Shown here piece by piece: positions 1,830 through 48,194 of a DNA stretch of 64,000 nt (positions are counted from its first letter, which is position 1; every line of letters starts with the position of its first letter). The translations under genes and the position numbers were made by a program. This DNA is from Oscillospiraceae bacterium (lineage in GTDB: Bacteria; Bacillota; Clostridia; Oscillospirales; Oscillospiraceae), in the NCBI GenBank assembly GCA_009777775.1, contig WRLE01000011.1:1-64000 (forward strand), given 5' to 3'. The notes beneath the pieces are model-generated. The model did not search any database. It was not told the DNA's origin and saw nothing but the letters and a program-made list of their open reading frames with translations.

Positions 1830-3068
1830 TTACAAAAATACTTCCTGTTCTATTGTTACGCCGTGTTTTAGGATTTCGCGGATGGAATCGTTGAATATGG
1901 GGTGTTCGTTGCGCTCTAGGACTCCTCTTAGTGTATGCAAATACTGCTCACTGCGTACCAAGCCTTGATGGGCATGAATGGTAACATCAATGGCTAACAT
2001 CCGCATGGGGCGAAGCTTGGGGAATATTTTTTCAAGTTTGTAAAACATCCGAAAGCCTCCCAGGTCAATGTCTGCCCAAAAATATACATCAATATTATCT
2101 CTTTGCATTGACTGCGCCAAAAGATTCAAAAATTGTCGCTTACGTGGGCTGATAAAGCCTCCGTGGTAGACCACCAGTTCTCTGTCGTCTATTTCGTTTC
2201 TGATATATTCGTTGTAATTGGTCAAGTTTTCTATAAATGTGATATATTTAATGAGCGAGAGGTCAAAAGATTTGATTTCGTATATGGAGGTGCTGCTTAA
2301 GGCAAACCCAGAGTTGATTAGCGGTGATATATTGACATTGCCTTTTTCCATTATGATTTCGCAGCGGCCCGAAAGCTGGTAAAGTTCTGGCTGGGAATAA
2401 ATACCCAAAAGTGCGAGCTTATCTCGAGGACCGATTTCCTCTTGCTGGGAAAGCTCTTCTATATCAGGGTGATAGCGAGTTGCTGCTCTGAGAAACTCGT
2501 CCATATATTCCAGCTCAAAGCTTTTTGAGTTCTGAAAGCAGCTTATGCTAAAGGAACGTAAGCTAATGGAGGAGTCTTTCAAGCGGTCATATACCACTAG
2601 CATATAAAAAAATGAGCGGACATAATCTAATCCTTCTCTAGCAAAAGAAGGCAGGCGGAGGGATTTTTGAGTGGTCTCGCAAACATCGTCTCGCCAGGCT
2701 ATTATCCAAGGAGTGCTAATTGAAGATAGCATTTTTTCGACTAAATCAAGAAACTCCTCTGCTGTTTGGGCGGGGTGTTTTCTTTTTGCTTCTTTATATG
2801 CTTTGTCCGTTTCCTGGAGGTTAAGTACCAGGGCTGTCATTATTGGACGGTCCTTGAGGGATTCAACTTTGATGATGCCTTCGGATTCCAATTCACGAGC
2901 AGCTTTATTATATCTATCTCTGGACTCGGAGGATTCGTAATTATACTCAGGCAGCTCCTTTTTGTCTATGCGGAGCATAACTCGCCTATTGGAAGTGTTC
3001 GGCGATGAAAGGTGTTTGCTATTTTCGTATTTGTCCAAGAGTCTGTTTAAAATTACTCCACGCTCCAT
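1830..3068 (-). CDS. jetD: Wadjet nuclease subunit JetD
   Basis: A 412-residue protein matching the DUF3322/DUF2220 family, the topoisomerase-VI-A/TOPRIM-like subunit of Wadjet. In studied Wadjet systems JetD cuts the closed circular DNA that the JetABC motor has extruded. The C-terminal TOPRIM region shows the acidic metal site: FIENLTNY near residue 277 and the DIDLGG motif near residue 333. The N-terminal half should form the winged-helix arm. The gene is last in the order A-B-C-D and its start overlaps the end of jetC by 16 nt, which implies translational coupling. Length and motifs look intact, so it should be active. Confidence 0.93.
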   Translation of the reverse strand: MERGVILNRLLDKYENSKHLSSPNTSNRRVMLRIDKKELPEYNYESSESRDRYNKAARELESEGIIKVESLKDRPIMTALVLNLQETDKAYKEAKRKHPAQTAEEFLDLVEKMLSSISTPWIIAWRDDVCETTQKSLRLPSFAREGLDYVRSFFYMLVVYDRLKDSSISLRSFSISCFQNSKSFELEYMDEFLRAATRYHPDIEELSQQEEIGPRDKLALLGIYSQPELYQLSGRCEIIMEKGNVNISPLINSGFALSSTSIYEIKSFDLSLIKYITFIENLTNYNEYIRNEIDDRELVVYHGGFISPRKRQFLNLLAQSMQRDNIDVYFWADIDLGGFRMFYKLEKIFPKLRPMRMLAIDVTIHAHQGLVRSEQYLHTLRGVLERNEHPIFNDSIREILKHGVTIEQEVFL

Positions 3069-6000: not shown

Positions 6001-6436
6001 TTGCTTCTTTATCAACTAAGTAGCAATCCTCAGGTATTACTCCATTGTATATGAAAAATTGCTCTCGCCTAGTACCGTCGTTTCTGCAGTCAAAGACAAT
6101 GCCACAGACAAATTGGGCTCCGCTTTGGTCGTCGAGGTATTGACAGGCGATGTAACTGGAAAAATCTTTCCCTCTGCGAGATTTGGTGTTTCCAGCGTCT
6201 CTATCTGCTCGCAAATAGCCATCTAATGTCCTCTGTGCTCGCTCATTGGCAGCTCTATTGAAATTTCGGGAGTTAAGCTCTCCTAAAAGTACAATCTGAA
6301 GTGCGTCCACAATGGCGGATTTACCGGCTCCGTTTTTACCGGTTATGAAGCTTATTGTGTCTACTTCGATGACTTGTTTGGAGAAAAATAGCCAATTAAC
6401 CAGTAGTATCTTCGTCAGTTTCTTCAATACTTTCAT
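3053..6436 (-). CDS. jetC: Wadjet SMC-like ATPase JetC
   Basis: A MukB-like SMC ATPase of about 1127 residues, the motor of the Wadjet loop-extruding complex. The N-terminal head has Walker A GKNGAGKS at residues 33-40. Long Lys/Glu-rich heptad segments (about 220-360 and 640-790) flank a central hinge-like globular region around 450-600, and a second coiled coil follows. Near the C terminus are the ABC signature RSGGETQQ (about residue 1020) and Walker B LVVFDEAF (about 1056). I prefer the ATG at 6436; a TTG at 6457 would add seven residues and neither has a strong ribosome binding site. It overlaps jetB by about 41 nt and jetD by 16 nt. No frameshift is visible. Confidence 0.93.
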   Translation of the reverse strand: MKVLKKLTKILLVNWLFFSKQVIEVDTISFITGKNGAGKSAIVDALQIVLLGELNSRNFNRAANERAQRTLDGYLRADRDAGNTKSRRGKDFSSYIACQYLDDQSGAQFVCGIVFDCRNDGTRREQFFIYNGVIPEDCYLVDKEAMDIATFRAYLKGIPDAREIFYDSARRYRDDLLAKWNVHNEQVCKMLKKAVSYEHIDDIQKFITENICDIPEKPNIESMQQNIRDYKRHEQLAQREENKLEFLREISKQYHNLQTALDKFQSQRFLILWSEINVLKNEIDEKNKKKQDCIDSINEEIERYDELEREIERQDQRKNELIADRANSDVAQEEIRLREQKNALISEEKILSEKIDHMALELRREVQILCSLSEDISSWDKTDLLSSLQITANTLYVACTPFVSCSSDIFSGSQEPFESIREAVSIFSSQLRQAAFDMAELIRQLNEDLEENNEVLMKLRNNIKDYPRQLLSLKGGLEERLSAKQGQPVHVHILADVLEIAEGQEDWRGAVEGYLNTQKLYLLVEPMYYPEALKIFDEFKGDFGTRSFGLVDIGKLRENERLDIREDSLASKVQTDNSLARSYVDYLLGRVICVNQISELRNHPTAITAQGMLYQGYVARPIPQSLMDDAFIGRKAIELRIARLEKSIEEIQSNVAINLPIHNSLISSQNREFLINRRFVQEAEQRQSDYLRTLEIKLEYEIVDEKLSQLDMFWLANLDAQIKDLEDELVQLRDRKEKSNANKALRENELYVLEYESLPEKYQELGEKEDNFNESFTSQYRDDIGIPRYELEINRLINPATIFQNFSRSIVSSQNEVENAQSQLFLKRLEYVREFQPCSFKVDATDNEEFDAERLALEESELPAYREKIKFARESALEQFQNDFLSKLKSSIDQVTDQVKNLNRALEIASFATDKYRFIIGRNPDEAEFYDMIMSPDLMEGDGGLFAMPFQQKYGQLIEDLFSRIATSDDNQLNARMQSELQQNIERYTDFRTYLKFDLEATDKNGNKELLSQTMNTRSGGETQQPFYVAVLASFAQLYRVTDKSSFGNTVRLVVFDEAFNKMDSNRIIESIRLLRTMGLQAIICAPPNKLPDIMPEADVTLLAFNENYTMQTLPYSKEIADTWSVE

Positions 6437-7025
6437 CCTTTCGTAGAGCAGATACAACAGTTTCCAAGCGTTCTGATGATACCACAGTCATTATGGTGGG
6501 TAAAATGGTGAACTTGCAATCTACTTGATTAAATCGTCCTTCCAACCTCTGGACTATGCTATGGTTTTCTAGTAATGTAAAGCCTCGTCGAACTTCATCC
6601 ATATTTGGACGGGAAGAAAGAATGTGGTAATCGGTGACCACCTTTTCCAAAACATCTCGCACAGTGCATATCACATCATGTTCCAAGCCAACGCGCTCCT
6701 GGTTTTCTTCGTAAATCATCCTGAGTGCCAGTAGGATAGCAGTTGTGTTTTTATTAATGGTACGGCGGTTTGCTTCGTCGGTATTGGTAACATAAAAATA
6801 GCCGTGAAAGTCATCTTTTCGCAGTTCCCAATCAAGAAGTGACAGGTACTGCTTCACAGTTTCAAAATGAATCGTCAAGAATGTGTAATCTGGATTGTTG
6901 ATTCTACCTCTGTCACGGGTGTACAGGCTTCGGACGATGAATGTATGACTGAGTAGATAATTGCATATTGATTTGAATTGTTCCAATTCCTTGGTCGAAA
7001 AATCATCGAGACTACTAAAACTCAT
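6396..7025 (-). CDS. jetB: Wadjet KITE-like subunit JetB
   Basis: A 209-residue protein in the position and size range of JetB, the KITE-type winged-helix subunit that links the JetA kleisin to the JetC heads. The start at 7025 (protein begins MSFSSLDDF) is favoured because AAGGAGC at 7034-7040 lies 8 nt upstream. The frame stays open to an ATG at 7088, but that start would place the first 13 or so codons inside the arm of the palindromic element at 7050-7180 and is probably spurious. The call rests mainly on context between jetA and jetC plus the mixed alpha/beta character; the sequence has no catalytic motif and none is expected. Confidence 0.85.
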   Translation of the reverse strand: MSFSSLDDFSTKELEQFKSICNYLLSHTFIVRSLYTRDRGRINNPDYTFLTIHFETVKQYLSLLDWELRKDDFHGYFYVTNTDEANRRTINKNTTAILLALRMIYEENQERVGLEHDVICTVRDVLEKVVTDYHILSSRPNMDEVRRGFTLLENHSIVQRLEGRFNQVDCKFTILPTIMTVVSSERLETVVSALRKDESIEETDEDTTG

Positions 7026-7049
7026 TATATGTTGCTCCTTTATATATAA

Positions 7050-7180
7050 GGATGGTAGTGTATTGTGTCTATTTCTTAGTTCCGTCAAGCGAAACCAAGG
7101 ACGGTGGAGCGCGCGAATTGACGCAAGGATGCGTCACTGAGCGATAGGAACTAAGAAATAGACACAATACACTACCATCC
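7050..7180. repeat. 131-nt palindromic element with perfect 34-bp arms, between jetA and jetB
   Basis: Bases 7050-7083 and 7147-7180 are exact reverse complements over 34 nt. The 63-nt centre contains its own hairpin (TGACGCA-AGGA-TGCGTCA). It begins 6 nt after the jetA stop and ends about 10 nt before the jetB ribosome binding site, so it fills nearly the whole intergenic gap and would be transcribed in the jet mRNA. The outline is that of a MITE-like or REP-like element, but no target-site duplication is evident. It could also act as an RNA hairpin that sets the JetA:JetB ratio or protects mRNA ends. Unrelated in sequence to the 27451-27639 palindrome but of the same design. Confidence 0.9.
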
Positions 7181-7186
7181 CAACAG

Positions 7187-8593
7187 CTACTCCTTTTTTG
7201 TAAAACGTAGCTGGGGGATTTGGTAAGGTTTATTTGTATAATCGCCTTCAAGGATCTCCACTTGGTAAAAGGAATCGGGGTCGCTGCCGTTGCTTACAGA
7301 GAGCAGGCTCATTAAATAGGCATGGTCATCGCTGACATTCATGTCTTTTGTATAAAATTGGTCTCCATTAGCAAATAAACTAGCCATAAACTCAGCAACC
7401 GCTGCTTTGCCATATTTAAGGGAAATCATATTTTCTATCTCCAAGAGCATATCCTCACTGATTTCCGCTTCTTCCACAGTCACAGGAGCTGTCTTTTCCC
7501 GTTTTGCTGGTTCTCTGCGGTTCCAAAGGCTTTTCTCGGATATGAATCCTTGCTCAAAGAGTTGGAAAATTGATTGTATATTATCCAAAAGGGTTTCTGA
7601 TTTACTACTTTGCACCATTGCAGTCAGCAAATAGTTCAGGTTTCCCCTAGTGTTTTGGTCACGGTTGCTGAGGTTTTCAATCTTCTGTGTAGTTGCACGA
7701 GTATAGCGACGCACCTGCTGGTCGATTTCGTCGAGATAATCGCTCTCGATGCGTTCATATTGGTCTTTTATGCGAAACATTTTTTCCATGAGGTCTATTT
7801 TGCAACTATCCAAATTTTCACCCCGCTTATCTTGAAAAGCAGCGTTTGACATTGCATATAATATACCATCGTCTTCCAACCATTCGTCTAAAATACTGCG
7901 AATGGGAACTTTGTATTTTGGCACAGAATCCCTTATTTTTAAAGGTCGAATGTATGATTCAATGACTCCTTGTCCAAAATCGTCGAAATGGGAAGCTAGG
8001 ACTTTGTTGATGTCATGCAATTCGATTTGCATTTGAAAAAAGCGGTTCACATTGTGGTAGACGCTCTTCAATAGTGAAATGAGCTCTTGGGTATTGTCAT
8101 ATGCGCTATACACAGCAAGCATTTTTTCATAGGCGTTATCCTCATCTTTTGCTACTTTCAGGGAGGAATATGTGCTGAAAACATATGAATAGCCGCGCAT
8201 GATGTCTTCGCTGGTGAGCTGGTGAAAAAGCTCCAGTAGCATGCTTGAATATCCAGGTACGATGATATACTCTTCGAAGTCTTTACTGCCACGCTCCTTT
8301 TCATACCAACCTCTGCTGTGGAGCTTTCGCATCAAAAAGCGTGCTTTGCCAGATGTTTCCCTCAGCTCGTCTTCGTCGATGATTTCTCCTTCGATGTCTT
8401 CTCCTGCGAAAGTCGTCTCATCCAATTGCTTTTCCAATTTTCCCCGCAACATGGAATATAGCGTCTGTTCAGGGATTTTCAAGTGGTCTTGGTATGCTTC
8501 ATACAGCACTTCCAATGCGTTGGCATATAGATTCTTATTAGGTGAGGCGAGAAGGGTGAATACATCGGGATGCACTGCTTCAAATAATTTCAT
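7187..8593 (-). CDS. jetA: Wadjet kleisin-like subunit JetA
   Basis: A 468-residue protein beginning MKLFEAVHPDVFTLLASPNK, characteristic of the JetA family annotated as DUF5716. JetA is the kleisin that closes the JetC ring. The N-terminal region (about 1-120) should be winged-helix; residues 150-330 are helical with many charged residues; an acidic linker (around 375-390) precedes a C-terminal domain. The DUF5716-like JetA and SMC of about 1100 residues suggest the type III subclass, but I hold the subtype loosely. First gene of the operon, read from the promoter at 8666-8694; the ribosome binding site is GGTGG-like, 10 nt before the ATG. It is separated from jetB by the palindrome. Confidence 0.9.
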   Translation of the reverse strand: MKLFEAVHPDVFTLLASPNKNLYANALEVLYEAYQDHLKIPEQTLYSMLRGKLEKQLDETTFAGEDIEGEIIDEDELRETSGKARFLMRKLHSRGWYEKERGSKDFEEYIIVPGYSSMLLELFHQLTSEDIMRGYSYVFSTYSSLKVAKDEDNAYEKMLAVYSAYDNTQELISLLKSVYHNVNRFFQMQIELHDINKVLASHFDDFGQGVIESYIRPLKIRDSVPKYKVPIRSILDEWLEDDGILYAMSNAAFQDKRGENLDSCKIDLMEKMFRIKDQYERIESDYLDEIDQQVRRYTRATTQKIENLSNRDQNTRGNLNYLLTAMVQSSKSETLLDNIQSIFQLFEQGFISEKSLWNRREPAKREKTAPVTVEEAEISEDMLLEIENMISLKYGKAAVAEFMASLFANGDQFYTKDMNVSDDHAYLMSLLSVSNGSDPDSFYQVEILEGDYTNKPYQIPQLRFTKKE

Positions 8594-16278: not shown

Positions 16279-17499
16279 CTAATAAAGCTGCATTACTGCA
16301 TCAGCTAGTTTTTTAGCAAATAATGGAGGTACGGCATTTCCGATTATTTTGTAATCTAGTGCAGTCCTAGATATGAATTCAAAATCATCAGGAAAAGTTT
16401 GCAACCTTGCAGCTTCCCTGACTGTGATGGTTCGTGCTTGCTCAGGGTCTGGATGTATATGACGAAGCCCGTCCTTGTAAAGATGCGCTGGGATTGTATT
16501 GCTAGGTTCGTTCCATCGTAGAACATAATACTTGTGTACATTGGATGTTCGACCGGTTTGGTCAGTATAAAGTTTCTTTAGTGCTTCTGACGATACATAC
16601 TTCATCTGTCCACTTCGAATGTCTTCGGTGAGGAGCTTAAATATTCCGATTTCGCGTAGATTGTTGTATCGAGCAGTATGGTTGTTTACACTATTATCAG
16701 GAGGTAGTGTATGTGAGTATTGCTTACCGTTTATACGTATAGGACTATCTAATGGGAATAGCTTGGGTAAATCTGATATAGCATCAAAAACAGTGTTTAT
16801 ACTATCTACTTTGCCTTTTGGCAATAGATCATTATAAAAATGGTTAAGCGTTTTTTCTACATTACCGCTGAAATAATCTTTTCTCAATCCGAGTATTATC
16901 ACACGTTTACGATTTTGTGGAACACCATACTCTGTAAAATCAATTACAGCATTATTTAAATCATCAAGTATAACATACCCAGCTTCAATAAAACCTGTTT
17001 TAATGCGATTTACAATTTTCTCGTTTCCGTTCCCTGGAGTAGCACTTAGCATACCGGGTACATTTTCAAAAATAAACGCTTTTGGAGCATAATGTTTAAC
17101 AATAGCAATATAGTGTTCAAACAAATAATTTCTATAATCGTCTTTCATTCCATTTTCATCTCTTACACGTCCAGCAACAGAATATGCTTGGCAAGGAGGC
17201 CCGCCAATAATTAAATCAACATTACCACCATACTTTGATACAAGTGAATCTAGTCCGTCAGATTTGCCATATTCAATGTCATCCCAACCATTTATCAGTT
17301 CATTTGAGCGTTGAATATCGAAACGTAAAATTCTCTCTTTTGCATCACAATATCCCCATTTTGATACGAAACGATGGAGAAGCGTATCGAAAGGTGTTTT
17401 GTCCCATTCTACACATGCAATTGTGTTATAGTTACCATTTTGCTTAAATCCTTCTGTCAAGCCTCCGCAACCTGCGAATAAATCAACTGTGTTAATCAA
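16279..17499 (-). CDS. DNA (cytosine-5) methyltransferase, second of the pair
   Basis: A 406-residue m5C methyltransferase. Canonical motifs are present: I (DLFAGCGGL, residues 6-14), IV with the catalytic cysteine (GGPPCQAYS), VI (ENVPG), VIII (QNRKRVIILG), IX (REAARLQTFPDDF) and X (GNAVPP). The variable target-recognition region lies between VIII and IX. It starts with TTG at 17499 behind GAGGAGG and overlaps the upstream methyltransferase gene by 8 nt. It shares fold but not close sequence with its neighbour, so the two likely modify different strands or sites to protect against the nuclease encoded next. Confidence 0.93.
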   Translation of the reverse strand: MINTVDLFAGCGGLTEGFKQNGNYNTIACVEWDKTPFDTLLHRFVSKWGYCDAKERILRFDIQRSNELINGWDDIEYGKSDGLDSLVSKYGGNVDLIIGGPPCQAYSVAGRVRDENGMKDDYRNYLFEHYIAIVKHYAPKAFIFENVPGMLSATPGNGNEKIVNRIKTGFIEAGYVILDDLNNAVIDFTEYGVPQNRKRVIILGLRKDYFSGNVEKTLNHFYNDLLPKGKVDSINTVFDAISDLPKLFPLDSPIRINGKQYSHTLPPDNSVNNHTARYNNLREIGIFKLLTEDIRSGQMKYVSSEALKKLYTDQTGRTSNVHKYYVLRWNEPSNTIPAHLYKDGLRHIHPDPEQARTITVREAARLQTFPDDFEFISRTALDYKIIGNAVPPLFAKKLADAVMQLY

Positions 17500-18586
17500 T
17501 TATAGAAACCTCCTCTTCATGTATAACAGAGCGAAGTGTTTTTCCAATGTAATAACCTAGCAAGGGAGGAACAGCATTTCCTACTTGTCGGTTCTGCTGA
17601 GTCCGTGTGCCATAAAAAATGAAATTATCAGGAAAGGATTGCAGACGAGCATTTTCGCGTATTGTTGGGACTCGGTTGTATTTATAATGGAAGTGATTCC
17701 TATGCCCTGTGTCGATTGTCTTTGAAGGTTTGTCGCTATGATATCTTGTCCATGCTTCATTAAAACTCCTGCTGTTACCAACCCCTTTTGGGAGGGATTT
17801 GTAATTGCCTCCTTCTGGTACTTGTGAAATAACATCGATTACAAATTGTTTATGCTGTGTGGCCACATGATTGTATAGCTCTTTGCATTCACCTCGCATT
17901 TGCTGTTGATAATTAGTCTCAGGGTCTGTTGAGTATTCATCTATTTCATTTCCATACCATCTTGGATTATTTACATCTGGTTCTCGGGCAGGCAAATCAC
18001 TGATTGCTTGACTGCACGTTATATATTTGTCCGGTGTTAAGATCGGTTCAGGAAACATTGGTATACCAACATCCTCCCGCACTCCCATTATAAAAAGCCT
18101 TTTTCGCATTTGAGGGACACCGTAATCAGCAGCACACAAAACATTTGGTTCGACATAATAGTTTAGTGTCTGGAAACGGCGAACTACCTCACGTAGTATA
18201 TCTCCTTTATATAGGGTTGCCATTCCTGGTACGTTTTCTACGAGGAAAGCTTTTGGATTATATCGTTTTACTGCTTCAATGACTGCTAGATACAATGTAT
18301 TGCGTTCGTCGTCAAAATTCCTTGGTCCTGTTAAAGAGAAGCCTTGGCATGGAGGTCCAGCAATAATAACATCAATGATTTTACCATTTAAAACTTCATC
18401 AATCAATGTGAAAGCTTCAGGTGATGATAAATCTGTATTCAGTACTGATGCTTCTCCGTGGTTTTCTTTAAATGTTTTCAACGCAGCTGAGTCGTTGTCT
18501 ACACCGAGGAGCAAGTTATACCCAGCTAACATGAATCCTTTCGACAAACCACCACATCCTGCAAATAGATCAATTGCGTTGAGCAT
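17492..18586 (-). CDS. DNA (cytosine-5) methyltransferase, first of the pair
   Basis: An m5C methyltransferase of 364 residues from the ATG at 18586, chosen because AGGAGGC (18594-18600) sits 7 nt upstream; an ATG at 18613 would add nine residues. Motifs: I (DLFAGCGGL), IV (AGPPCQGFS), VI (ENVPGM), VIII (QMRKRLFIMG), IX (RENARLQSFPDNF) and X (GNAVPP). First gene of the restriction-modification operon. The operon looks more AT-rich than the surrounding housekeeping genes, in keeping with acquisition by transfer, though I did not compute this. Confidence 0.93.
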   Translation of the reverse strand: MLNAIDLFAGCGGLSKGFMLAGYNLLLGVDNDSAALKTFKENHGEASVLNTDLSSPEAFTLIDEVLNGKIIDVIIAGPPCQGFSLTGPRNFDDERNTLYLAVIEAVKRYNPKAFLVENVPGMATLYKGDILREVVRRFQTLNYYVEPNVLCAADYGVPQMRKRLFIMGVREDVGIPMFPEPILTPDKYITCSQAISDLPAREPDVNNPRWYGNEIDEYSTDPETNYQQQMRGECKELYNHVATQHKQFVIDVISQVPEGGNYKSLPKGVGNSRSFNEAWTRYHSDKPSKTIDTGHRNHFHYKYNRVPTIRENARLQSFPDNFIFYGTRTQQNRQVGNAVPPLLGYYIGKTLRSVIHEEEVSIID

Positions 18587-18613
18587 TTTAACAGCCTCCT
18601 GCTTGTACTTCAT

Positions 18614-19373: not shown

Positions 19374-20417
19374 ATGATTATGCTTAAAATCGCTTTTTTC
19401 GACACGAAACCATATGATCAAAATTGGTTTGATAAAATTAACGATGTTCATACGATAACATATTATGAAAACAGGCTCAATTCCGCAACTGCAAGTTTGG
19501 CAAAAGGCAACGAGGTAGTTTGTGCATTTGTTAACGATGACATATCAGCTGAAACAATTGGTATACTCCAAAATCTCGGTGTTCGTCTCATAGCTCTTAG
19601 ATGCGCAGGATACAACAATGTTGATATGAAAGCAGCTTTTGGAAAGATTCATGTAGTCCGAGTTCCCGCATACTCGCCTTATGCAGTGGCAGAACATGCC
19701 ATGGCTCTTTTGCTTACACTCAATAGGAAACTCCACAGAGCATATAACCGTACCAGAGATTTTAACTTCAGCTTAGTTGGTTTAGGTGGTATAGATTTGT
19801 ACGGCAAAACTGTTGGGATCATAGGTACAGGAAAAATCGGGAGGGTCTTCATCGATATTTGCCACGGCTTTGGTATGAATATTATCGCTTATGATCTCTA
19901 CCCTGGGGAGGATTCGGATATAAAATATGTAGATTTAAACACATTGTTCAAAGAAAGCGATGTCATCTCCCTACATTGTCCATTAACCGATGAAACTAGA
20001 CATTTGTTAGATGCAGTAGCTTTTTCTCATATGAAAAATGGTGTTATTATCATAAACACCTCTAGAGGAGCACTAATAGACACTGTAGCTTTACTAGAGG
20101 CTCTAAATAATGGCAAAATTGGAGGTGCAGGTCTTGACGTTTATGAGGAAGAATCAGATTTTTTCTATCAAGACTTGTCAGGAACGATAATCCACGATGA
20201 TTTACTTGCTCTCCTTGTTTCCCGTCCCAATGTTCTTCTCACTTCCCACCAAGGTTTTTTGACAGAGGAAGCCTTATCAAATATCGCTGAAACAACGTTG
20301 GCAAATATTGATGAGTTCTTTAAAAACGATGCAATTATCAATGAGATTTGTTACCAATGCGATGCTGGTAAAGTTGAAGGCAACTGCAGTAAGAAAAGAA
20401 CAGGACGTTGTTTCTAA
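19374..20417 (+). CDS. ldhA: D-2-hydroxyacid dehydrogenase (D-lactate dehydrogenase-like)
   Basis: A 347-residue NAD-dependent D-2-hydroxyacid dehydrogenase of the D-LDH type, reducing a 2-oxo acid (classically pyruvate) to the D-hydroxy acid. The Rossmann motif VGIIGTGKIG is at about 148-157; the INTSRGALID segment carries the catalytic Arg, GLDVYEEE the catalytic Glu and SHQGFL the catalytic His. AAGGAG sits 6 nt before the ATG. The C-terminal tail is unusual, with four Cys in the last 25 residues. It converges on the aromatic operon with a 13-nt gap; an arylpyruvate substrate is possible but pyruvate is the default. Confidence 0.88.
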   Translation: MIMLKIAFFDTKPYDQNWFDKINDVHTITYYENRLNSATASLAKGNEVVCAFVNDDISAETIGILQNLGVRLIALRCAGYNNVDMKAAFGKIHVVRVPAYSPYAVAEHAMALLLTLNRKLHRAYNRTRDFNFSLVGLGGIDLYGKTVGIIGTGKIGRVFIDICHGFGMNIIAYDLYPGEDSDIKYVDLNTLFKESDVISLHCPLTDETRHLLDAVAFSHMKNGVIIINTSRGALIDTVALLEALNNGKIGGAGLDVYEEESDFFYQDLSGTIIHDDLLALLVSRPNVLLTSHQGFLTEEALSNIAETTLANIDEFFKNDAIINEICYQCDAGKVEGNCSKKRTGRCF

Positions 20418-20430
20418 ACAAACGTATGCA

Positions 20431-21651
20431 CTAATACCTATTGTCGAAAATTCTAGTGGTTTTCTTTTCGCTTCTGGGTAAATCGCCGATGGGGACTGCT
20501 TTTGCCACTGGAGTGAGACCTATTTTGTCTTTAAAATCCTCTTCAACAGTTCCCTCCAAAGTTCTTGCCGAATCACCATCAAGGGCAGTTTCAAAAAAGA
20601 CAGTTAAAATATCTCTACCATCTAGATGATCTATCATAATTTGGTATTCGCTGCTCACTCCATCGATGGTTGCCAATAAAGAATCAACACTACTAGGATA
20701 CAGGATAACACCCTTAACCTTAATCATGTCATCGCTGCGACCGAGAATGGCATCGATACGTGGGTATTCCAGACCGCATTCACATTTGCCAGCAATTGCT
20801 CTGGTTAAATCGTGTGTGCGATAACGGATAAGTGGAGCACCTTCCTTTTCCAAGGTGGTGATGACCAGCTCGCCAGTAACACCCTCAGGCACTAGCTCGC
20901 CAGTGTTGGGGTCGATGATTTCATAATAAAAGTAGTCTGTCCACATATGCATGGCACTTTGCAATTCGCAATTGATACCAATACCGGGACCATAGACTTC
21001 GGTAAGCCCATAGATGTCATACAGCTCCACGCCAAGTTCCCCGGCGATTCTGGCGCGCATTTTTTCGCCCCAACGCTCCGAGCCAATTACGCCCTTCTTA
21101 AGATAGAGTTGGTCACGCAGACCTCGCTTTTGAATTTCCTCAGCCAGGAGCAAAACATATGATGATGTACCTGTTATAACCGTGGTTTTCATATCAATCA
21201 TCATGCTAATTTGCTTGTCAGTATTGCCCGGACCCATGGGAATCGCCATGGCTCCTAAAAGCTCGCTTCCTGCTTGAAAACCAATACCAGCAGTCCAAAG
21301 TCCATAACCAGGGGTGATTTGGATGCGGTCAAGATTCGTTATTCCCGCTGTTTCGTAGCAGCGTTTAAACATTACAGCCCAATCATGAACATCCTTGCTG
21401 GTATAGGGGATGATAACTGGAACTCCAGTGGTGCCTGAAGAAGAATGGATTCGCACAATTTTTTCATCGGGAACAGCTTGAAGCCCTAAAGGATATGCGT
21501 TTCTCAAATCGTCCTTGTCGGTGAAAGGCAATTTTTGGAAATCTTCCATTGTTTTTATGTCTTCCACATTAATATCCTTGAAGCGCGATTTGTAAAATTC
21601 GCCCTCCATTGCACGGGAAATAGCTTTTTTGATGTTACTTAAATTATCCAT
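20431..21651 (-). CDS. paaK: Phenylacetate/arylacetate-CoA ligase
   Basis: An AMP-forming acyl-CoA ligase of 406 residues from the ATG at 21651. The P-loop-like adenylation motif SSSGTTGVPV lies near residue 82, a YGLTE motif follows (aromatic/ATP contact), then a YRTHDL segment and the C-terminal Lys region EKKTTR. PaaK-type enzymes turn phenylacetate, indoleacetate or hydroxyphenylacetate plus ATP and CoA into the CoA thioester. The start overlaps the iorB stop by 8 nt, so production is coupled to IorAB. In archaea and anaerobic bacteria the same gene pairing handles arylacetates and aromatic 2-oxo acids. Last gene of the T-box operon. Confidence 0.92.
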   Translation of the reverse strand: MDNLSNIKKAISRAMEGEFYKSRFKDINVEDIKTMEDFQKLPFTDKDDLRNAYPLGLQAVPDEKIVRIHSSSGTTGVPVIIPYTSKDVHDWAVMFKRCYETAGITNLDRIQITPGYGLWTAGIGFQAGSELLGAMAIPMGPGNTDKQISMMIDMKTTVITGTSSYVLLLAEEIQKRGLRDQLYLKKGVIGSERWGEKMRARIAGELGVELYDIYGLTEVYGPGIGINCELQSAMHMWTDYFYYEIIDPNTGELVPEGVTGELVITTLEKEGAPLIRYRTHDLTRAIAGKCECGLEYPRIDAILGRSDDMIKVKGVILYPSSVDSLLATIDGVSSEYQIMIDHLDGRDILTVFFETALDGDSARTLEGTVEEDFKDKIGLTPVAKAVPIGDLPRSEKKTTRIFDNRY

Positions 21652-22174
21652 GATACAACTTCTTTCCAATTTCAAATGCTTCTATGTTTTCCTCGCGGTA
21701 GCGAGGCATTTCCGAAATAACGTCAAGTAGAGCTTTTTCATCAAATGGGAAGATACCGCTCTGGGTGGCGGCTCCCAAAAGAGCCACATTGAGCATCCTT
21801 GAATATTTTTCTTTTAGAGATTCTCCAGAAATTATTACACCACCAGGTATACTGGTCTCGATGTACTCCATCATATCTGCAGCACCGTCATATGTTATCA
21901 AGCTGCCCTTTTGTGATAAATAGGACAATTGGCGTACAGCTTCAGTGGGGTCAAAGCCAATGATGATGTCAGCTTTGCCTTTGGGAATTAAAGGGGAAAA
22001 GACTTGAGTTCCCATGCGAATATGGCTAACGACACTGCCGCCTCGTTGAGCCATGCCGATGGTTTCAGTGGTGCGAACCTCGAAGCCTTGATTCATCGCA
22101 GCGGCGGCTAATAGTTTCGAAGCTAGGACTATACCTTGTCCGCCGATGCCTGCTATTAAACAGTTGAAAATCAT
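21644..22174 (-). CDS. iorB: Indolepyruvate:ferredoxin oxidoreductase, beta subunit
   Basis: A 176-residue gamma-domain subunit of the 2-oxoacid:ferredoxin oxidoreductase superfamily. The N-terminal GIGGQGIVLASKLLA motif and the RGGSVVSHIR segment are hallmarks of IorB. With IorA it interconverts aromatic 2-oxo acids (indolepyruvate, phenylpyruvate, hydroxyphenylpyruvate) and arylacetyl-CoA, exchanging electrons with ferredoxin. It follows iorA by 24 nt and overlaps paaK by 8 nt. Confidence 0.95.
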   Translation of the reverse strand: MIFNCLIAGIGGQGIVLASKLLAAAAMNQGFEVRTTETIGMAQRGGSVVSHIRMGTQVFSPLIPKGKADIIIGFDPTEAVRQLSYLSQKGSLITYDGAADMMEYIETSIPGGVIISGESLKEKYSRMLNVALLGAATQSGIFPFDEKALLDVISEMPRYREENIEAFEIGKKLYHG

Positions 22175-22198
22175 GTTTGCTATTCCCTGCCTTTCTAA

Positions 22199-23833
22199 TT
22201 ATAGCATGATGCACGGAGACTCGAAGATTATCACTCGAACGCCTTTAAGTGCCATTGCATCGGTGACGGCTTGCCTTGCTTCTCTCGCTTTGAAGGGGTC
22301 TACTCGGAATAGTTTTGTGATGTTCAAAGCTTCCACAACATTACCTATATCAATTTTTTCTGTGACATTTCCCATCATTGTTACACCAGTTCCAGGATGG
22401 GGCTGTCCACCAGTCATCGCAGTTGTGGAATTGTCAAGAATAACAACGATTATATCTGATTGGTTATACACAGCATTGACGATGCCGGTTATACCAGAGT
22501 GGAAAAAGGTGGAATCGCCGATGAATGCGAAGTGTACAGTATCAGGCTCGATGCGATGCAAACCTTGGGCAATGGTGATGCCTGCGCCCATGCATAGGCA
22601 AGTGTCCACCATACCTAGGGTATTGCCTAAAGTGTAGCAGCCAATATCTCCAGTATATACAGCGGAAATCCCCTGGGTTGCGTTTTTCACAGCGGAAAAG
22701 GATGCTCTATGGGGGCAGCCGATGCATAGGGAAGGAGCGCGTCCTGGTATTTCTGGAGGAGCTTTTGAATTAGGAGTTAGGAATGAGGAATTAGGAGTGT
22801 TTTTTAGGTTTCTGCTTTCGCCTATTTCCTCTTCAAAGAATTTGCAAATTGCTGCTTCTACGCTTTCTGGGGTGAACTCTCCTGCTATTGGGGTGTTTCT
22901 TGTGTTTTGTCCTTTGATTTTCACATTAAGGTTGTGTAAGCCACATAGTCTCACCAGGTCTTCTTCGATAACAGGATCTAATTCCTCGACCACTAAAACT
23001 TCATCTAAGCCAGTCAAAAATTCCAAGGCTAGTTTGTCGGGGAAGGGGAATGTTGTGACTTTTAGAAGTTTGTGATTTATATCAAGACTTTCAAGGGCTT
23101 CTAGAGTGTAGGAATAACTCACACCACCAACTGCTATGCCTTTTTTTCCAGAACCTGTGAGCAGGTTTTTATCATAATTGGAAAAATCCTCTCGCATTTT
23201 CAGTAAATCTTCTTGGATTTTTATATGGTTGTTATATGACAGCCTTGGGAATATTACCCATTTTTCATCTTTAATGAAACCTTCAGCCTGCTTCTTTGGT
23301 AAGTCATCGAGAATGTCTATTGAAGCGCAGCTGTGGCATACCCTTGTGGTGGGGCGAAATAGCACCGGTTGACCGTATTTTTCCGAATGCTCAAATGCAT
23401 CGGCAATCATAGTATAAGCTTCCTCAGGGGTGGAAGGATCAAAGAGTGATAATTTTGCATATTTGGCAAAGTGGCGTGTGTCCTGCTCGGTTTGGGAAGA
23501 TATGGGACCTGGGTCATCTGCAACAACGATGACCATGCCGCCTTTTACACCTATGTAATTGAGGCACATTAATGGGTCAGAGGATGCGTTCAAGCCAACC
23601 TGTTTCATGGTCACAAGAACCCTAGCTCCAGCATATGCAGCTCCCGCAGCCACTTCCAAAGCAGCCTTTTCATTGACAGACCACTCGACATAGACACTGC
23701 CATCATTATTCTTGGCAACTGTATCAAGTATCTCACTAGAGGGAGTACCAGGATACCCAGTAACCACAGAAACCCCAGCTCTTAAAGCACCAAAAGCGAT
23801 AGCCTCGTTACCCATCAGAAGCTTTTTTGACAT
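22199..23833 (-). CDS. iorA: Indolepyruvate:ferredoxin oxidoreductase, alpha subunit, lacking the C-terminal ferredoxin domain
   Basis: About 544 residues from the ATG at 23833 (a GTG at 23842 is alternative). The N-terminal pyrimidine domain begins GNEAIAFGALRAG with the YPGTPSSE motif; the C-terminal thiamine-diphosphate domain has the CIGCPHR motif, GDIGCYTLG and the GDSTFFHSG...N metal/TPP motif. Known IorA proteins usually end with a two-[4Fe-4S] ferredoxin domain of roughly 60 residues; here the protein stops after ESPCIML and iorB begins 24 nt later, so that domain is absent. A repeat of the TAGGAAT type is translated in frame at about residues 345-358, in the linker between domains. 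Both oddities leave the catalytic motifs intact. Confidence 0.93.
   Translation of the reverse strand: MSKKLLMGNEAIAFGALRAGVSVVTGYPGTPSSEILDTVAKNNDGSVYVEWSVNEKAALEVAAGAAYAGARVLVTMKQVGLNASSDPLMCLNYIGVKGGMVIVVADDPGPISSQTEQDTRHFAKYAKLSLFDPSTPEEAYTMIADAFEHSEKYGQPVLFRPTTRVCHSCASIDILDDLPKKQAEGFIKDEKWVIFPRLSYNNHIKIQEDLLKMREDFSNYDKNLLTGSGKKGIAVGGVSYSYTLEALESLDINHKLLKVTTFPFPDKLALEFLTGLDEVLVVEELDPVIEEDLVRLCGLHNLNVKIKGQNTRNTPIAGEFTPESVEAAICKFFEEEIGESRNLKNTPNSSFLTPNSKAPPEIPGRAPSLCIGCPHRASFSAVKNATQGISAVYTGDIGCYTLGNTLGMVDTCLCMGAGITIAQGLHRIEPDTVHFAFIGDSTFFHSGITGIVNAVYNQSDIIVVILDNSTTAMTGGQPHPGTGVTMMGNVTEKIDIGNVVEALNITKLFRVDPFKAREARQAVTDAMALKGVRVIIFESPCIML
22767..22799. repeat. TAGGAATT-type repeat inserted in frame within iorA
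   Basis: Plus-strand GAATTAGGAGTTAGGAATGA and the following GGAATTAGGAGTG match the arrays at 57466-57512 and 58886-58932. Read on the minus strand it encodes a Pro/Asn/Ser-rich stretch (TPNSSFLTPNSK) in the interdomain linker of IorA. Confidence 0.85.
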
Positions 23834-23849
23834 ATGTATCACTACCTTT

Positions 23850-24608
23850 TTAATTAATGATTAACCCAACTATATATCCTGCTAGGGTCACTAACAAGAC
23901 TATTGCGTCTCTTAGTCCGAACTTTGTGTTTCGGTAGCTAGATCGGGGTCCTGCGCCGAAGCCTCTTACTTCTAGGGATATTGCCATTTGTTCAGTTTTT
24001 TTCACCGAAGACGATAACAGAGGAATCGTCAAGGGGAGCATTTTTCCGAAACGTTTTATGGGTCCGCCTTTGTCCAATTCGCAGCCTCTGGCGGTTTGGG
24101 CTTGTATTATTTGTCCCATTTCGCTGGTTAGCATTGGTATAAATCTCAAAGTTGCTGTCACAGCAAAGGCATATTTATATGGTACTCGAAAATGCTTCAC
24201 AACAGCTGTTGCCAAATCGTTTGCAGGTGTGAGCATTATCATTATGCAAATTGGCATCAAAGCACCTATTGTGCGAAACACCATGGTAAAACCTTGTATT
24301 AAACCCACATCGCTGATGGCTATAATACCATAGTTTATTAGAAAAATACCATCTCGATTGAAAAAAACAGTAAAAAACAGCAAAAGAGCGCAAATCAAAG
24401 TAAACATTTTAATGATTGCTTTGCCTTCTCGCACTATCCCGCTGGTGAAAAAAATGAGCAAATTGATTGATGCAATCGCTCCAAGAAACCAAATGTTTTG
24501 ACAGATGAAACATAGGATTCCAAAGAGAATTGCCCATATTATTTTTGTTATAGGATGTAGTTTATGAAAAAACGAGTTTCCAGGTACATATTGAAGAACA
24601 GCCTTCAA
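23850..24608 (-). CDS. ecfT: ECF transporter transmembrane coupling protein EcfT
   Basis: A 252-residue membrane protein with about five hydrophobic helices and the ARG coupling motif (QTARGCELD) that contacts the ATPases; a second such helix (LEVRGFGAG) lies near the C terminus. EcfT joins the substrate-binding S component to the EcfA ATPases. It starts with TTG at 24608 behind AGGAGG. It lies between the ATPase genes and iorA (8 or 17 nt gap), so importer and enzymes are in one transcript. Confidence 0.95.
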   Translation of the reverse strand: MKAVLQYVPGNSFFHKLHPITKIIWAILFGILCFICQNIWFLGAIASINLLIFFTSGIVREGKAIIKMFTLICALLLFFTVFFNRDGIFLINYGIIAISDVGLIQGFTMVFRTIGALMPICIMIMLTPANDLATAVVKHFRVPYKYAFAVTATLRFIPMLTSEMGQIIQAQTARGCELDKGGPIKRFGKMLPLTIPLLSSSVKKTEQMAISLEVRGFGAGPRSSYRNTKFGLRDAIVLLVTLAGYIVGLIIN

Positions 24609-24635
24609 AGGGTCCGACCTCCTGAGTGCGTGGGG

Positions 24636-25457
24636 TTATATTTTACCATTGTTTTTTACATTATCTTTTATAGCTTCAAAAAGCGTTTCTACGCTATATA
24701 CACCTTCATAACCACCTAAGGTAATGGCGACATCAATCATCTGAGGTGGCTTTAGCCCAGTACGTTCAAGCTCTTCCTTTTGCCACAGCACATCAACTGT
24801 ATTTCCGTCACCTATTACTTGACCATCATAAAGCATAATAGCTCGTTTAGTATAGTCAACCACCACTTCCATATCGTGGGACACCATGAGGACTGTGACA
24901 CCCTGCCCATTGAGCTCGGTGACAATATCCATGATTTTTACACATTCACGATAATCTTGTCCAGTTGTTGGTTCGTCGAGGACAAGCACCTCTGGCTTGA
25001 TGGCAAGCACTCCAGCAAGTGCAGTTCTCTGGCGTTCACCACGACTGAGGGAGAAGGGATGGGCTTGCATTTTACCCTCTATACCGAGTAGTTGTGCGGT
25101 TTTATAAGCGCGATCTTTAATTTCATCCTCTGGCAATCCGAGGTTTTTCATTCCAAATTCTATCTCTTCTTCAACAGTTTGGCAAAAAATTTGATGATCG
25201 GGATTTTGGAAGAGATAACCGATGTGTTTCGCCATTTCGCTGACACGGGTCTTTGATGTATCCATTCCTGCTACGACAACTCTGCCTTTGGTGGGTTTTG
25301 AGAGTCCATTTAATTGACGAAGAAGAGTAGTTTTACCAGAGCCGTTCTGCCCAATTAATGCCACCATTTCACCTTTGTCTATGGTTATATTTATACCTTT
25401 AAGTGTTAGGGGGTCACGAGGGGAGTATTGGTACTCCAAGTTTTCCACCAATATCAT
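24636..25457 (-). CDS. ecfA2: ECF transporter ATPase (EcfA, second copy)
   Basis: A 273-residue ABC ATPase with Walker A GQNGSGKTT (residues 37-45), Q-loop YLFQNPDHQ, signature LSRGERQR, Walker B VLVLDEPTTG and the switch His in VSHD. The pattern FQNPDHQ is typical of energy-coupling-factor ATPases. It pairs with the upstream ATPase, whose stop it overlaps by 4 nt, to form the EcfAA' heterodimer. Confidence 0.95.
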   Translation of the reverse strand: MILVENLEYQYSPRDPLTLKGINITIDKGEMVALIGQNGSGKTTLLRQLNGLSKPTKGRVVVAGMDTSKTRVSEMAKHIGYLFQNPDHQIFCQTVEEEIEFGMKNLGLPEDEIKDRAYKTAQLLGIEGKMQAHPFSLSRGERQRTALAGVLAIKPEVLVLDEPTTGQDYRECVKIMDIVTELNGQGVTVLMVSHDMEVVVDYTKRAIMLYDGQVIGDGNTVDVLWQKEELERTGLKPPQMIDVAITLGGYEGVYSVETLFEAIKDNVKNNGKI

Positions 25458-26296
25458 GGTCTCGTCACCTCTCTTACCATCGTTGCTGCTTCTTCAACAG
25501 TTCGGGGATATGTTCCGTTATATAGCCCCTCTTCTTCCAACATACGAGCTAGGCTGACGACTCGTGGGCAATTAATTCCCATTTCGATGAGTCGCCAGCT
25601 TTCTTTCAATGTGTCTATGGTGGACATATCCGTCATAATCTCGCCATCCACCATGGTTATCATCCGTTTACTGAAGTGGGATAGAAGCATGATTTTTTGC
25701 TCCACTATTATAATTGTCATATTATGATCTTGGTTCAGCTTTGCTAATGTTTCAAATATCATTTGACTGCCCATGGGGTCAAGCTCGCTGGTGGGTTCGT
25801 CCAGAACTAATATCTCTGGTCGCAGGGCAATGGCGGCTGCCACAACTACACGCTGTTTTTGTCCTCCTGATAAACCTGCTGTATCGCGCTTTCTCAAATG
25901 GGGGATACCGGAGAGCTCCAGCGCCTCTGTTATTCGCATATCAATTTCCCCGGCGGGAACATTGAAGTTTTCGAGACTAAATGCGATTTCATCTTCCACA
26001 TATGATGTGACAATTTGTGCTTCCGGGTCTTGTAAAACGCTTCCCACATGTCGGCTCAATGCCACGCAACCACTGTTTACAGTGTCAAGCCCACAAACCG
26101 TCACGCTTCCATAAAAATCCCCTGTGTAATAATGGGGAACAATGCCGTTAATAGAAGACAGCAAAGTACTCTTCCCAGCCCCTGAAGGACCGATAATACC
26201 CACGAACTCACCCTTTTCAATGTGTAAATTAATCCCCTTGAGTGCAGGCTGTTCAGTATCGCCATATTGAAATGTATAGTCTTTTATGGAAATCAT
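25454..26296 (-). CDS. ecfA1: ECF transporter ATPase (EcfA, first copy)
   Basis: About 280 residues from the ATG at 26296 (AAGG 9 nt upstream); an ATG at 26323 would begin inside repeat-derived sequence. Motifs: Walker A GPSGAGKST, Q-loop VLQDPEAQ, signature LSGGQKQR, Walker B ILVLDEPTSE, and VEQK in the switch region, where Gln replaces the usual His. Partner of the downstream ATPase gene. Confidence 0.95.
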   Translation of the reverse strand: MISIKDYTFQYGDTEQPALKGINLHIEKGEFVGIIGPSGAGKSTLLSSINGIVPHYYTGDFYGSVTVCGLDTVNSGCVALSRHVGSVLQDPEAQIVTSYVEDEIAFSLENFNVPAGEIDMRITEALELSGIPHLRKRDTAGLSGGQKQRVVVAAAIALRPEILVLDEPTSELDPMGSQMIFETLAKLNQDHNMTIIIVEQKIMLLSHFSKRMITMVDGEIMTDMSTIDTLKESWRLIEMGINCPRVVSLARMLEEEGLYNGTYPRTVEEAATMVREVTRP

Positions 26297-26302
26297 TGGA
26301 AA

Positions 26303-26475
26303 AAACCTTCTATCAATGAACAATTAACAATGAACAATGAACAATTAGCTGTTGTTCATTATTTATCGTCTATTGTTGATTGTCCATTGTTAATGTTAAT
26401 ATACTAGGAAGTTGCTAATATTTCATCGTTAATCTGTCATCGTTAATTGTTAATTGTTAATTGTTAATTGTTCAG
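26303..26475. repeat. TTAACAATGAAC-type short repeat arrays between the S-component and ATPase genes
   Basis: Two clusters, 26313-26350 (CAATGAACAATTAACAATGA) and 26436-26472 (TTAATTGTTAATTGTTAATT), flank a less regular middle. The second forms the 3' end of the S-component gene, giving the C-terminal residues QLTINN and its stop. The same motif is at 43325-43443 and 48195-48235. Confidence 0.85.
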
Positions 26476-27049
26476 TGTTCTTCCGTTTCATTATTGTTCC
26501 TAGAGCGGGGTAGAGGATGAAGACGGTTATGGAGTTGGCTGCTGCTGTGCCGATGATTATTGCGTTGAATACGCCCAGAGCCATGTTGTTGACTTCCATA
26601 CCTGAAAGAAGGAGTATTTTCAGCATGAGAAAGAATGTATAGCCGCTGGCAAGGGTAGTTAGAAAAGTCATCACTGCTGGTATCAATGACATTTTGCCAA
26701 ATTTTGTATTGATGGGTATGCGGATTAGCAGGAACATTACAACAGCTCCAATGGCTTCGCTGGCGATATTGGCATAGGGTGTTGCTCCGGGGAGGAACAT
26801 ACAGACGACTCCTGCGATGAGTCCGATTGCGAGAGCTTCGAAAAATCTGGGTCGCACCAGCAAAATTGCCAGGGCGTACATTGCAATGACCATGTTGGGT
26901 TTTAGCGGTGTGAATGAAAATATTGTGTTAGATACTGCTTTAAGGACAGCTCCAGCTGCGATGAGTACCGCTACGATTAATATTTCCGTAACGGTGATGC
27001 CTTGTTTCTTCTTGGTTTCCAGTTCTCTTTTTTGTGCTAGTTCTGACAT
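26450..27049 (-). CDS. trpP: ECF S component, TrpP-like (probable tryptophan uptake)
   Basis: A 199-residue integral membrane protein with about six hydrophobic helices. The central part (helix, FSFTPLKPNMVIAMYALAIL, helix, GLIAGVVCMFLPGATPYA) resembles TrpP of Firmicutes, an S-component-like tryptophan transporter. It is followed by both ATPases and EcfT, giving a complete dedicated ECF importer. The tRNA-Trp-like T-box in its leader supports tryptophan as substrate. The ribosome binding site AAGGTGG is 10 nt before the ATG. The last six or so residues come from the short repeat array and are unlikely to matter. Confidence 0.8.
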   Translation of the reverse strand: MSELAQKRELETKKKQGITVTEILIVAVLIAAGAVLKAVSNTIFSFTPLKPNMVIAMYALAILLVRPRFFEALAIGLIAGVVCMFLPGATPYANIASEAIGAVVMFLLIRIPINTKFGKMSLIPAVMTFLTTLASGYTFFLMLKILLLSGMEVNNMALGVFNAIIIGTAAANSITVFILYPALGTIMKRKNTEQLTINN

Positions 27050-27078
27050 GATAATGGGTCCACCTTTCGTTAATTAGT

Positions 27079-27370
27079 AAACAAAATACTCGCCCAATGA
27101 CTATCTATTGTCAAGGACGAGTTGTGACCCGTGGTGCCACCTTGATTCGCAGAAATGATTCTGCCTCCGGCGGGATACTGATATATCCCTCAGCTTTCAC
27201 GCAGCTGATACGTTGCGGAGTACTCGGATTATTAATCCTTTGACCGCACCCTCCGTGGACCATTATGATATCCTGCAATTCCGCAAGGCTCTCAGCTACT
27301 CCCTGCTCTCTGTGGGCGCATATAATATCTTTACTTCCACATCAACGGTTTGATGGACGAATATTCGGTT
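27079..27370 (-). promoter_or_regulatory. T-box leader, probably tRNA-Trp responsive
   Basis: The minus-strand leader has the antiterminator T-box AAGGTGGCACCACGGGTC (27143-27126) with its partner CTCGTCCTTG, and a Rho-independent terminator (arms 27122-27115 and 27095-27088, then TATTTTGTTT). Upstream are AGAGAG and a stem GCAGGG/CCTTGC closing an AG-bulge-like loop, as in Stem I. The variable T-box base is C, which pairs with a tRNA whose discriminator base is G; tRNA-Trp has G73, whereas tRNA-Phe and -Tyr have A73. A TGG triplet lies in the 3' side of Stem I (27262-27260). Uncharged tRNA-Trp would thus turn on the whole operon. The T-box is certain; the Trp assignment is well supported but provisional. 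Confidence 0.93.
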
Positions 27371-27376
27371 TTTGAA

Positions 27377-27406
27377 ATCCTAGCACAAAGGGATGTGCTT
27401 TGTCAA
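27377..27406 (-). promoter_or_regulatory. Promoter of the T-box operon
   Basis: Minus-strand TTGACA (27406-27401), an 18-nt spacer and TAGGAT (27382-27377). The spacer contains the dyad AGCACA-N6-TGTGCT, a possible operator. Confidence 0.75.
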
Positions 27407-27450
27407 TACTTTTTTTGGCAAATGGAAAATATAGTTGTGACATCGGAGCG

Positions 27451-27639
27451 TGTTGCATAAATAGTGTTTTCGTTTTCATGAGCTAAGGAGCTACGAGCAA
27501 AGCCGCACAAAGGCTCATTTTCGCGGCTTGCGAACTCGCTTCGCTCAAACAGCGCAAGCCCTTTAGCTCAAATTTCGCCATGTGCGGCTAATGCTCTTCG
27601 CTATACGCTCATGAAAACGAAAACACTATTTATGCAACA
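27451..27639. repeat. 189-nt palindromic element with perfect 33-bp arms
   Basis: Bases 27451-27483 (starting TGTTGCATAAATAGTG) are exactly complementary to 27607-27639. The centre is also largely self-complementary: GAGCAAAGCCGCACA near 27491 pairs with TGTGCGGCTAATGCTC near 27582 with small bulges, so almost the whole element folds into one long branched hairpin. No reading frame or transposase. Looks like a non-autonomous insertion element; same design as 7050-7180 but with different sequence. Confidence 0.9.
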
Positions 27640-27670
27640 TAATAGATTTTGGGGACACATGATTAGTCAT

Positions 27671-43324: not shown

Positions 43325-43443
43325 ATAATGAACAATTAACAATTAACAATGAACAATTATTTGTCGTTCGTCGATATTCATTCATTGTCAGTTATACATT
43401 GTTCGTTGTATATTGCTTATTGTTCATTGTTCATTGTTCATTC
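43325..43443. repeat. TTAACAATGAAC/TTGTTCATTGTTCATTG short repeat array
   Basis: A rightward part (AACAATTAACAATTAACAAT, 43331 onward) is followed by complementary copies (ATTGTTCATTGTTCATTGTT, about 43420-43440), so the region can form a hairpin in the nrnA-rbfA gap. The rbfA stop lies at its edge. Confidence 0.8.
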
Positions 43444-48171: not shown

Positions 48172-48194
48172 GAATAAATCCTCCGATTTTAGTA

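Follow-up and report, generated by a model that had tools for sequence, protein, structure and literature searches.

A minus-strand operon in the genome of an Oscillospiraceae bacterium joins genes for an energy-coupling factor (ECF) importer to iorA, iorB and paaK, which encode relatives of the two subunits of indolepyruvate oxidoreductase (IOR) and of an arylacetate-CoA ligase, and is preceded by a leader initially annotated as a T-box. The operon lies within a 64,000-nucleotide (nt) stretch of contig WRLE01000011.1 (positions 1 to 64,000), here called the window. T-boxes generally turn genes on when an amino acid is short, and the question raised by this locus is whether enzymes placed under such control break tryptophan down or help to supply it. 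The analysis described below makes it likely that a tryptophan T-box attenuates an operon which would supply tryptophan by import and by salvage of indoleacetate.

The anatomy and specificity of the leader are read directly from its sequence (Table 1). Its match to the Rfam T-box model RF00230 lies below the gathering score of 93, and the leader is hence absent from the scan of the whole window at that threshold. In a search of its own genome the leader was one of ten T-box matches (E 9.5e-18, below the cut-off), and like leaders from other loci (numbered with L; genomes with G) scored 121.7 (L100), 97.7 (L106) and 93.3 bits (L083). The helices of Stem I covary among 25 leaders, with a score of 0.79 against 0.27 in shuffled alignments and 90.3% of cells paired. 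Folded alone, Stem I reaches −23.3 kcal/mol, which 78 of 200 shuffles equalled, so there is no excess stability and the case for Stem I is made by covariation and not by fold energy. The triplet at the specifier position is TGG, a tryptophan codon, as had been noticed from the letters. The variable base of the UGGN motif is C, and the proposed fit to the discriminator base of tRNA-Trp holds, as the genome contains a tRNA-Trp (anticodon CCA, detected with ARAGORN) with G at position 73. Downstream, the terminator hairpin (27122-27088) folds at −17.4 kcal/mol (z −4.34; 0 of 200 shuffles equally stable), although it was missed by a consensus terminator scan, and the antiterminator alone at −10.8 kcal/mol (z −0.99; 35 of 200 shuffles equally stable). 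The two folds, at 27078-27126 and 27108-27150 respectively, have bases in common and are mutually exclusive. The specifier, UGGC and the competing terminator bear out the initial annotation of a T-box ahead of the operon, and on these sequence features the leader is confirmed as a tRNA-Trp T-box that would act by transcription attenuation in response to the tRNA.

The initial annotation also proposed that the same gene set might be sought behind T-boxes in other Clostridia. For this, 80 IorA loci were used, the best among 596 confirmed relatives in a scan of named genomes with an IorA alignment; 63 of the 80 have paaK within the locus. A Stem I model (R1) was made from ten leaders, including those of the window and of the trpB operon in the same genome, and searched over 83 sources (the 80 loci, the window, L017 and L018). 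It gave 25 matches of at least 50 bits, with the next at 27.8 bits. Nine are leaders used for training, one is L147, whose record is that of training leader L018, and 15 are new; all stand directly 5' of iorA, paaK or the S component gene. A T-box is found on the set in 23 of the 80 loci, standing directly before iorA with no transporter between in 21, before paaK in L100 and before the S component gene in L147. The T-box of L083 was found from its core motif, confirmed by Rfam and its TGG read by eye; Rfam also confirms those of L100, L106 and, at 50.8 bits, L131. A relaxed core upstream of iorA in L133 was not counted, R1 being empty there. Because the pattern used to excise the training leaders requires ATGG, these are not independent on the specifier, but TGG is present in all 15 leaders outside the training set, none of which reads phenylalanine or tyrosine. 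A specifier for another amino acid is rejected for these leaders and for that of the window. The UGGN base is C in 12 and T in 13 of 25 leaders (counted with L172 and without L027; L074 has C, L112 has T), T allowing a G-U wobble with G73. The bearers include Sporomusa ovata, S. silvacetica, a Pelosinus metagenome-assembled genome (MAG), Desulfosporosinus acididurans, Caproiciproducens galactitolivorans, Parasporobacterium paucivorans and two Christensenellaceae MAGs. On a quick IorA tree, from which one short row of 94 (L181) was left out, the T-box changes state at least nine times on branches with good support, which points to an association that is either patchy or frequently lost.

Within the window, profile matches agree with the single operon first proposed, consisting of the T-box followed by the S component, two ECF ATPase, EcfT, iorA, iorB and paaK genes, all on the minus strand. 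Its description as a run of overlapping or very close genes stands for all junctions but one, the S component gene being followed by a longer gap. In gene order the spacings are 126, −4, 27, 7, 24 and −32 nt, the last becoming −8 nt if paaK begins at its ATG (21651). On the minus strand the consensus scan listed terminator-like sites only outside the operon, at 27706-27679 and 20297-20285; a transcription unit ending before iorA was rejected on this basis, weakly, since the same scan missed the T-box terminator. The promoter-like site upstream of the leader is weak evidence alone, with 23 such sites in the scanned region against 15.7 expected; it starts at 27406, the end coordinate of the initial annotation.

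Table 1. Features of the T-box operon in the window.
Feature	Position	Strand	Basis
Sigma-70-like promoter, TTGACA-18-TAGGAT, TG before second hexamer	27377..27406	-	Consensus scan, 10/12 matches
T-box leader RNA (tRNA-Trp sensing, predicted)	27110..27354	-	RF00230, 80.2 bits, E 1.3e-17 (901-nt scan)
Stem I of T-box	27249..27351	-	One of ten training sequences of model R1
Specifier triplet TGG (Trp)	27260..27262	-	TGG at same position in 25/25 aligned leaders, 15 outside model building
T-box UGGN, N = C, able to pair with G73 of tRNA-Trp	27136..27139	-	Sequence
Intrinsic terminator hairpin, bases shared with antiterminator	27088..27122	-	Fold against shuffles
ECF S component, TrpP type, 199 amino acids	26450..27049	-	46-61% identity to L018 and L017 proteins
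ECF ATPase 1	25454..26323	-	TIGR04520 6.5e-68, below equivalog cut-off
ECF ATPase 2	24636..25457	-	TIGR04521 1.3e-76, below equivalog cut-off
EcfT transmembrane component	23850..24608	-	CbiQ PF02361 2e-32
iorA, IOR alpha, without C-terminal two-cluster ferredoxin domain	22199..23842	-	TIGR03336 629.4 bits
iorB, IOR beta	21644..22174	-	POR PF01558 9.4e-30; IOR beta models below cut-offs
paaK-type AMP-forming arylacetate-CoA ligase	20431..21675	-	TIGR02155 2.2e-109; PDB 4r1l 1.5e-98

The complete run of S component, ecfA1, ecfA2, ecfT, iorA, iorB and paaK was found in six other genomes (G001, G384, G434, G356, G333 and G486), of which G486 is 11% contaminated and G333 has its iorA as two overlapping matches. 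In G001, from another family of the same order, the identical gene order follows a T-box of 81.2 bits with TGG. The set is rearranged in Pseudobacteroides cellulosolvens and in G222, a member of the same family, where a T-box of 68.6 bits precedes S component, ecfA1, ecfA2, ecfT and paaK, and iorAB lies a few kilobases upstream. A tryptophan-type T-box (R1, 80.4 bits) is also present before an S component and ECF set at L172 (genome G539; 2330-2431, minus strand), on a contig that ends before any position iorAB could take.

The importer is a full ECF set in one operon, its two ATPases and EcfT being joined by an S component recognized through homology to TrpP-type relatives. Neither Pfam (PF17099) nor NCBIfam gives the earlier TrpP label to the window protein itself, but of six relatives scanned with it four (L018, L119, L174 and L177) pass the PF17099 cut-off, with no match in L017 and L172. 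Few genomes have an S component of this kind: the order gave 6 among 295, the window's included (one cut by a contig end, two weak), and a sample of 391 from the class gave 22 (eight weak). ECF genes beside iorAB in two Ruminococcus loci (L080 and L102) were set aside as, by eye, another ECF set, followed in L080 by a truA-like gene.

The tryptophan supply of the organism bears on what the operon is for. The window genome is 97.25% complete and has no match to PF04715 (the TrpE N-domain) or PF00425 (chorismate-binding enzymes), both families being present in each of 14 control genomes. No chorismate-binding enzyme was matched in 18 of the 19 genomes of the genus, nor in any of the 10 with at least 90% completeness and at most 5% contamination. 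With no anthranilate synthase the organism would be expected to need import of tryptophan, anthranilate, indole or indoleacetate, unless the gene sits in an unassembled part of the genome. G001 likewise gave no match to TrpA, indole-3-glycerol phosphate synthase or the TrpE N-domain. A second T-box with TGG is present in the window's own genome (L186, C2:172000-185000; T-box at 1832-2073) before trpB, trpA, a transporter gene, trpD, trpC and trpF (2082-8187). This transporter belongs to the sodium:sulfate symporter family (Na_sulph_symp) and may import anthranilate.

In the proposed mechanism, uncharged tRNA-Trp would bind TGG in Stem I and pair through G73 and its CCA end with UGGC. The antiterminator would then form, and transcription would continue into the seven-gene operon. 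Tryptophan would be supplied directly by the TrpP-type importer and, by a second route, from an arylacetate, most likely indoleacetate, which the PaaK-type ligase would convert with ATP into its CoA ester. IorAB running in reverse would carboxylate indoleacetyl-CoA with low-potential electrons to give indolepyruvate, from which a general aminotransferase would form tryptophan. As the window IorA keeps only conserved cysteines near its thiamine pyrophosphate (TPP) site, electrons would enter without a built-in ferredoxin domain. The tRNA response, the substrate, the direction and the transported compound are what we infer from the leader and the gene set, and indoleacetate (rather than phenylacetate) and the reductive direction are predictions.

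Reductive use of IOR is reported from rumen anaerobes, on which the literature search gave nothing to the point, and for methanogens, the other precedent named at the outset, the support is experimental. In Methanococcus maripaludis aryl acids are converted to aromatic amino acids via IOR (PMC3462420, PMC4162585; here and below papers are cited for the portions of their text that were available), the same use of the enzyme in an archaeal setting where those portions mention no T-box. In Bacteroides the AMP-forming ligase beside IOR was assayed as an arylacetate-CoA ligase and biosynthesis was proposed, so that gene pair and direction are as suggested here, with neither a T-box nor an importer described in the text available (PMC13285125). 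In Geobacter the same three genes appear as ‘tryptophan (iorAB-paaK)’ and have a conserved 5' sequence, but this is a stretch of about 90-100 bases, and the T-box footnote of the table sits on leuA (PMC2700814). The T-boxes of clostridial trp operons and trpP, such as C. difficile trpP (PMC7438776), also belong to RF00230 and likewise have TGG in Stem I, UGGN and a terminator/antiterminator pair; here, by contrast, the target operon includes iorAB-paaK, and many relatives have the T-box directly before iorA.

Fermentation is the explanation most opposed to salvage. The T-box could govern import only, with iorAB-paaK sharing the transcript and serving oxidative fermentation of aromatic amino acids, as IOR does in amino acid fermenters (PMC13285125); in C. 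difficile a T-box is on trpP, and iorAB shares a different operon with genes for an aromatic aminotransferase and a kinase (PMC7438776). This is improbable given the 21 loci in which the T-box directly precedes iorA with no transporter between. Induction by tryptophan starvation would moreover waste tryptophan, and the ligase is AMP-forming rather than an energy-conserving kinase or ADP-forming enzyme. Starvation control and an AMP-forming ligase together favour the direction of synthesis. The initial argument that starvation control suits salvage and not breakdown is supported, since it is strengthened by these 21 loci and by the missing anthranilate synthase. Control of iorAB-paaK by tryptophan starvation, and hence an anabolic direction, is well supported at the level of comparative sequence analysis. 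That direction is shared by a reading which overlaps with indoleacetate salvage, in which the operon would recover arylacetates generally (phenylacetate, hydroxyphenylacetate and indoleacetate) as precursors of the three aromatic amino acids, the costliest product, tryptophan, serving as the signal. The breadth of IORs, arylacetate kinases and ligases (PMC13285125) makes this a real possibility, though one that falls short of an even chance against TGG in all 15 independent leaders, with no phenylalanine or tyrosine codon, and a TrpP-type S component that recurs in the operon.

Several observations weigh against salvage of indoleacetate under tryptophan control. The full run in G384, G434, G356, G333 and G486 has no T-box (R1 on all five; Rfam on four, G434 excepted), and in 57 of the 80 IorA loci neither R1 nor the core motif gives one, some of these loci being cut short upstream; of eight of these rechecked with Rfam, none has one near iorA. 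The T-box also fails as a mark of tryptophan auxotrophy, as the presence of TrpA is unlinked to it: among 50 genomes, TrpA is above the cut-off in 15 of 22 with T-box loci (distant in G738) and in 20 of 28 others, with one further match below the cut-off. In other genomes the salvage route would then add to synthesis. The ligase, homologous to the solved phenylacetate-CoA ligase 4r1l, scores 365.8 bits with TIGR02155 against a PaaK equivalog cut-off of 646.3. IorA itself falls short of TIGR03336 (cut-off 650.9), its match stopping at position 533 of 595, the expected start of a C-terminal domain with two [4Fe-4S] ferredoxin clusters. This domain is absent from the window IorA, iorB beginning 24 nt after the end of iorA, a loss that the initial annotation had overlooked. 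With 6 departures in 157 near-invariant columns (median 0) the protein ranks third for deviation among 86 rows.

These traits raise the alternative that the window IorAB is decaying, or has changed in reaction, and that import has become the main role of the operon. Beyond the lost domain, GNxxPL in the TPP domain is shortened to GNTL by a two-residue loop deletion, a heptamer-repeat insertion is present in a linker, the departures exceed those of 83 of 85 other rows, and the end branch in the tree measures 0.44-0.47, although L017 and L079 come close to it. Decay is nevertheless somewhat unlikely, since the reading frame is intact, 151 of 157 near-invariant columns are kept in IorA, 24 of 26 in IorB and 134 of 135 in PaaK, and IorA retains Cys 373, 376, 402, 415 and 417, its core cysteines being invariant. 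Furthermore, the lost domain and the loop deletion recur together in L078 IorA (L078:1017-2654), whose frame is unbroken and which groups separately. Both CxxCxxC motifs are present in 77 of 80 IorA relatives, the exceptions being L078, where they are absent, L117, cut by a contig end, and L123, with one motif only; among 93 rows GNTL occurs only in the window IorA and L078. The two never group in 200 bootstrap trees, and a single origin of the ferredoxin-less IorA was rejected at an approximately unbiased p-value of 0.0469, which is borderline, and the pair was picked after the first tree was seen. The loop shortening was probably taken separately by each.

A TPP fold, conserved core cysteines and an adjoining beta subunit, the marks of an IorAB, are all present in the window. 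The AlphaFold2 model of IorA has a mean confidence (pLDDT) of 84.5, and a fold search returned general TPP enzymes and Helicobacter OorA (TM-score by target 0.72), which added little. Sulfolobus-type 2-oxoacid oxidoreductases work with one cluster, and a working minimal IorA without the ferredoxin domain is plausible from the retained residues. Among 19 genomes of the genus, this type of IorA occurs in that of the window alone, the IorA-like proteins of the others matching at about 40% or less. The window's genome carries a second set (L183, C7, 5635-13733) of AMP-binding ligase, iorA, iorB and paaK, after which come genes for an ECF S component and an aminotransferase; its iorAB-paaK is 38-42% identical to that of the window and has no T-box beside it.

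Repeats and neighbouring genes were also noted. GARTTAG-type heptamer arrays occur at 22767-22795, 57466-57508 and 58883-58932, the first inside iorA, where it encodes part of a low-confidence linker. Heptamer repeats also border the 126-nt gap between the S component gene and ecfA1: TTGTTMA arrays, in inverted orientation, lie at these borders (26314-26344 and 26440-26470) and at 43333-43443 and 48193-48216, with 12 matches where 0.05 would be expected. A large imperfect inverted repeat (27450-27640, by eye) immediately upstream of the promoter has the look of a small mobile element. Directly after paaK stands a convergent 2-hydroxyacid dehydrogenase gene (19374-20417), VanH/D-lactate dehydrogenase-like and below the cut-offs of those models, and two adjoining minus-strand genes at 16279-18613 resemble, by eye, C5-cytosine DNA methyltransferases.

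Prior art is partial. As a tryptophan gene set iorAB-paaK is not wholly new, judging from the available text on Geobacter (PMC2700814). No paper joining a T-box to IorAB or indolepyruvate was found in a search that did not cover key T-box surveys, supplements, RegPrecise or TBDB, where the regulon may be listed. In their available portions, PMC2700814 and PMC7438776 mention both iorA and T-box without joining them, and the main text of Wels 2008 (PMC2494555), as far as available, contains none of ‘indole’, ‘phenylacetate’ or ‘oxidoreductase’. The present analysis adds the tRNA-Trp T-box on iorAB-paaK, its spread and its operon with an importer.

A wider proposal, doubtful as a whole, is that a tryptophan T-box regulon for indoleacetate salvage extends across Clostridia, in which IorA of a few members would twice have lost its ferredoxin domain and two loop residues of the TPP domain to become a minimal arylpyruvate synthase fed directly by a separate ferredoxin, with an S component perhaps for indoleacetate rather than tryptophan. 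For anaerobes more generally, the T-box would offer a genetic readout of the direction of IorAB-PaaK, which is ambiguous from enzymology, and would predict which bacteria take up indoleacetate for tryptophan. The idea is open to direct testing in bearers that are in culture, among them Sporomusa ovata, Desulfosporosinus acididurans and Caproiciproducens galactitolivorans.

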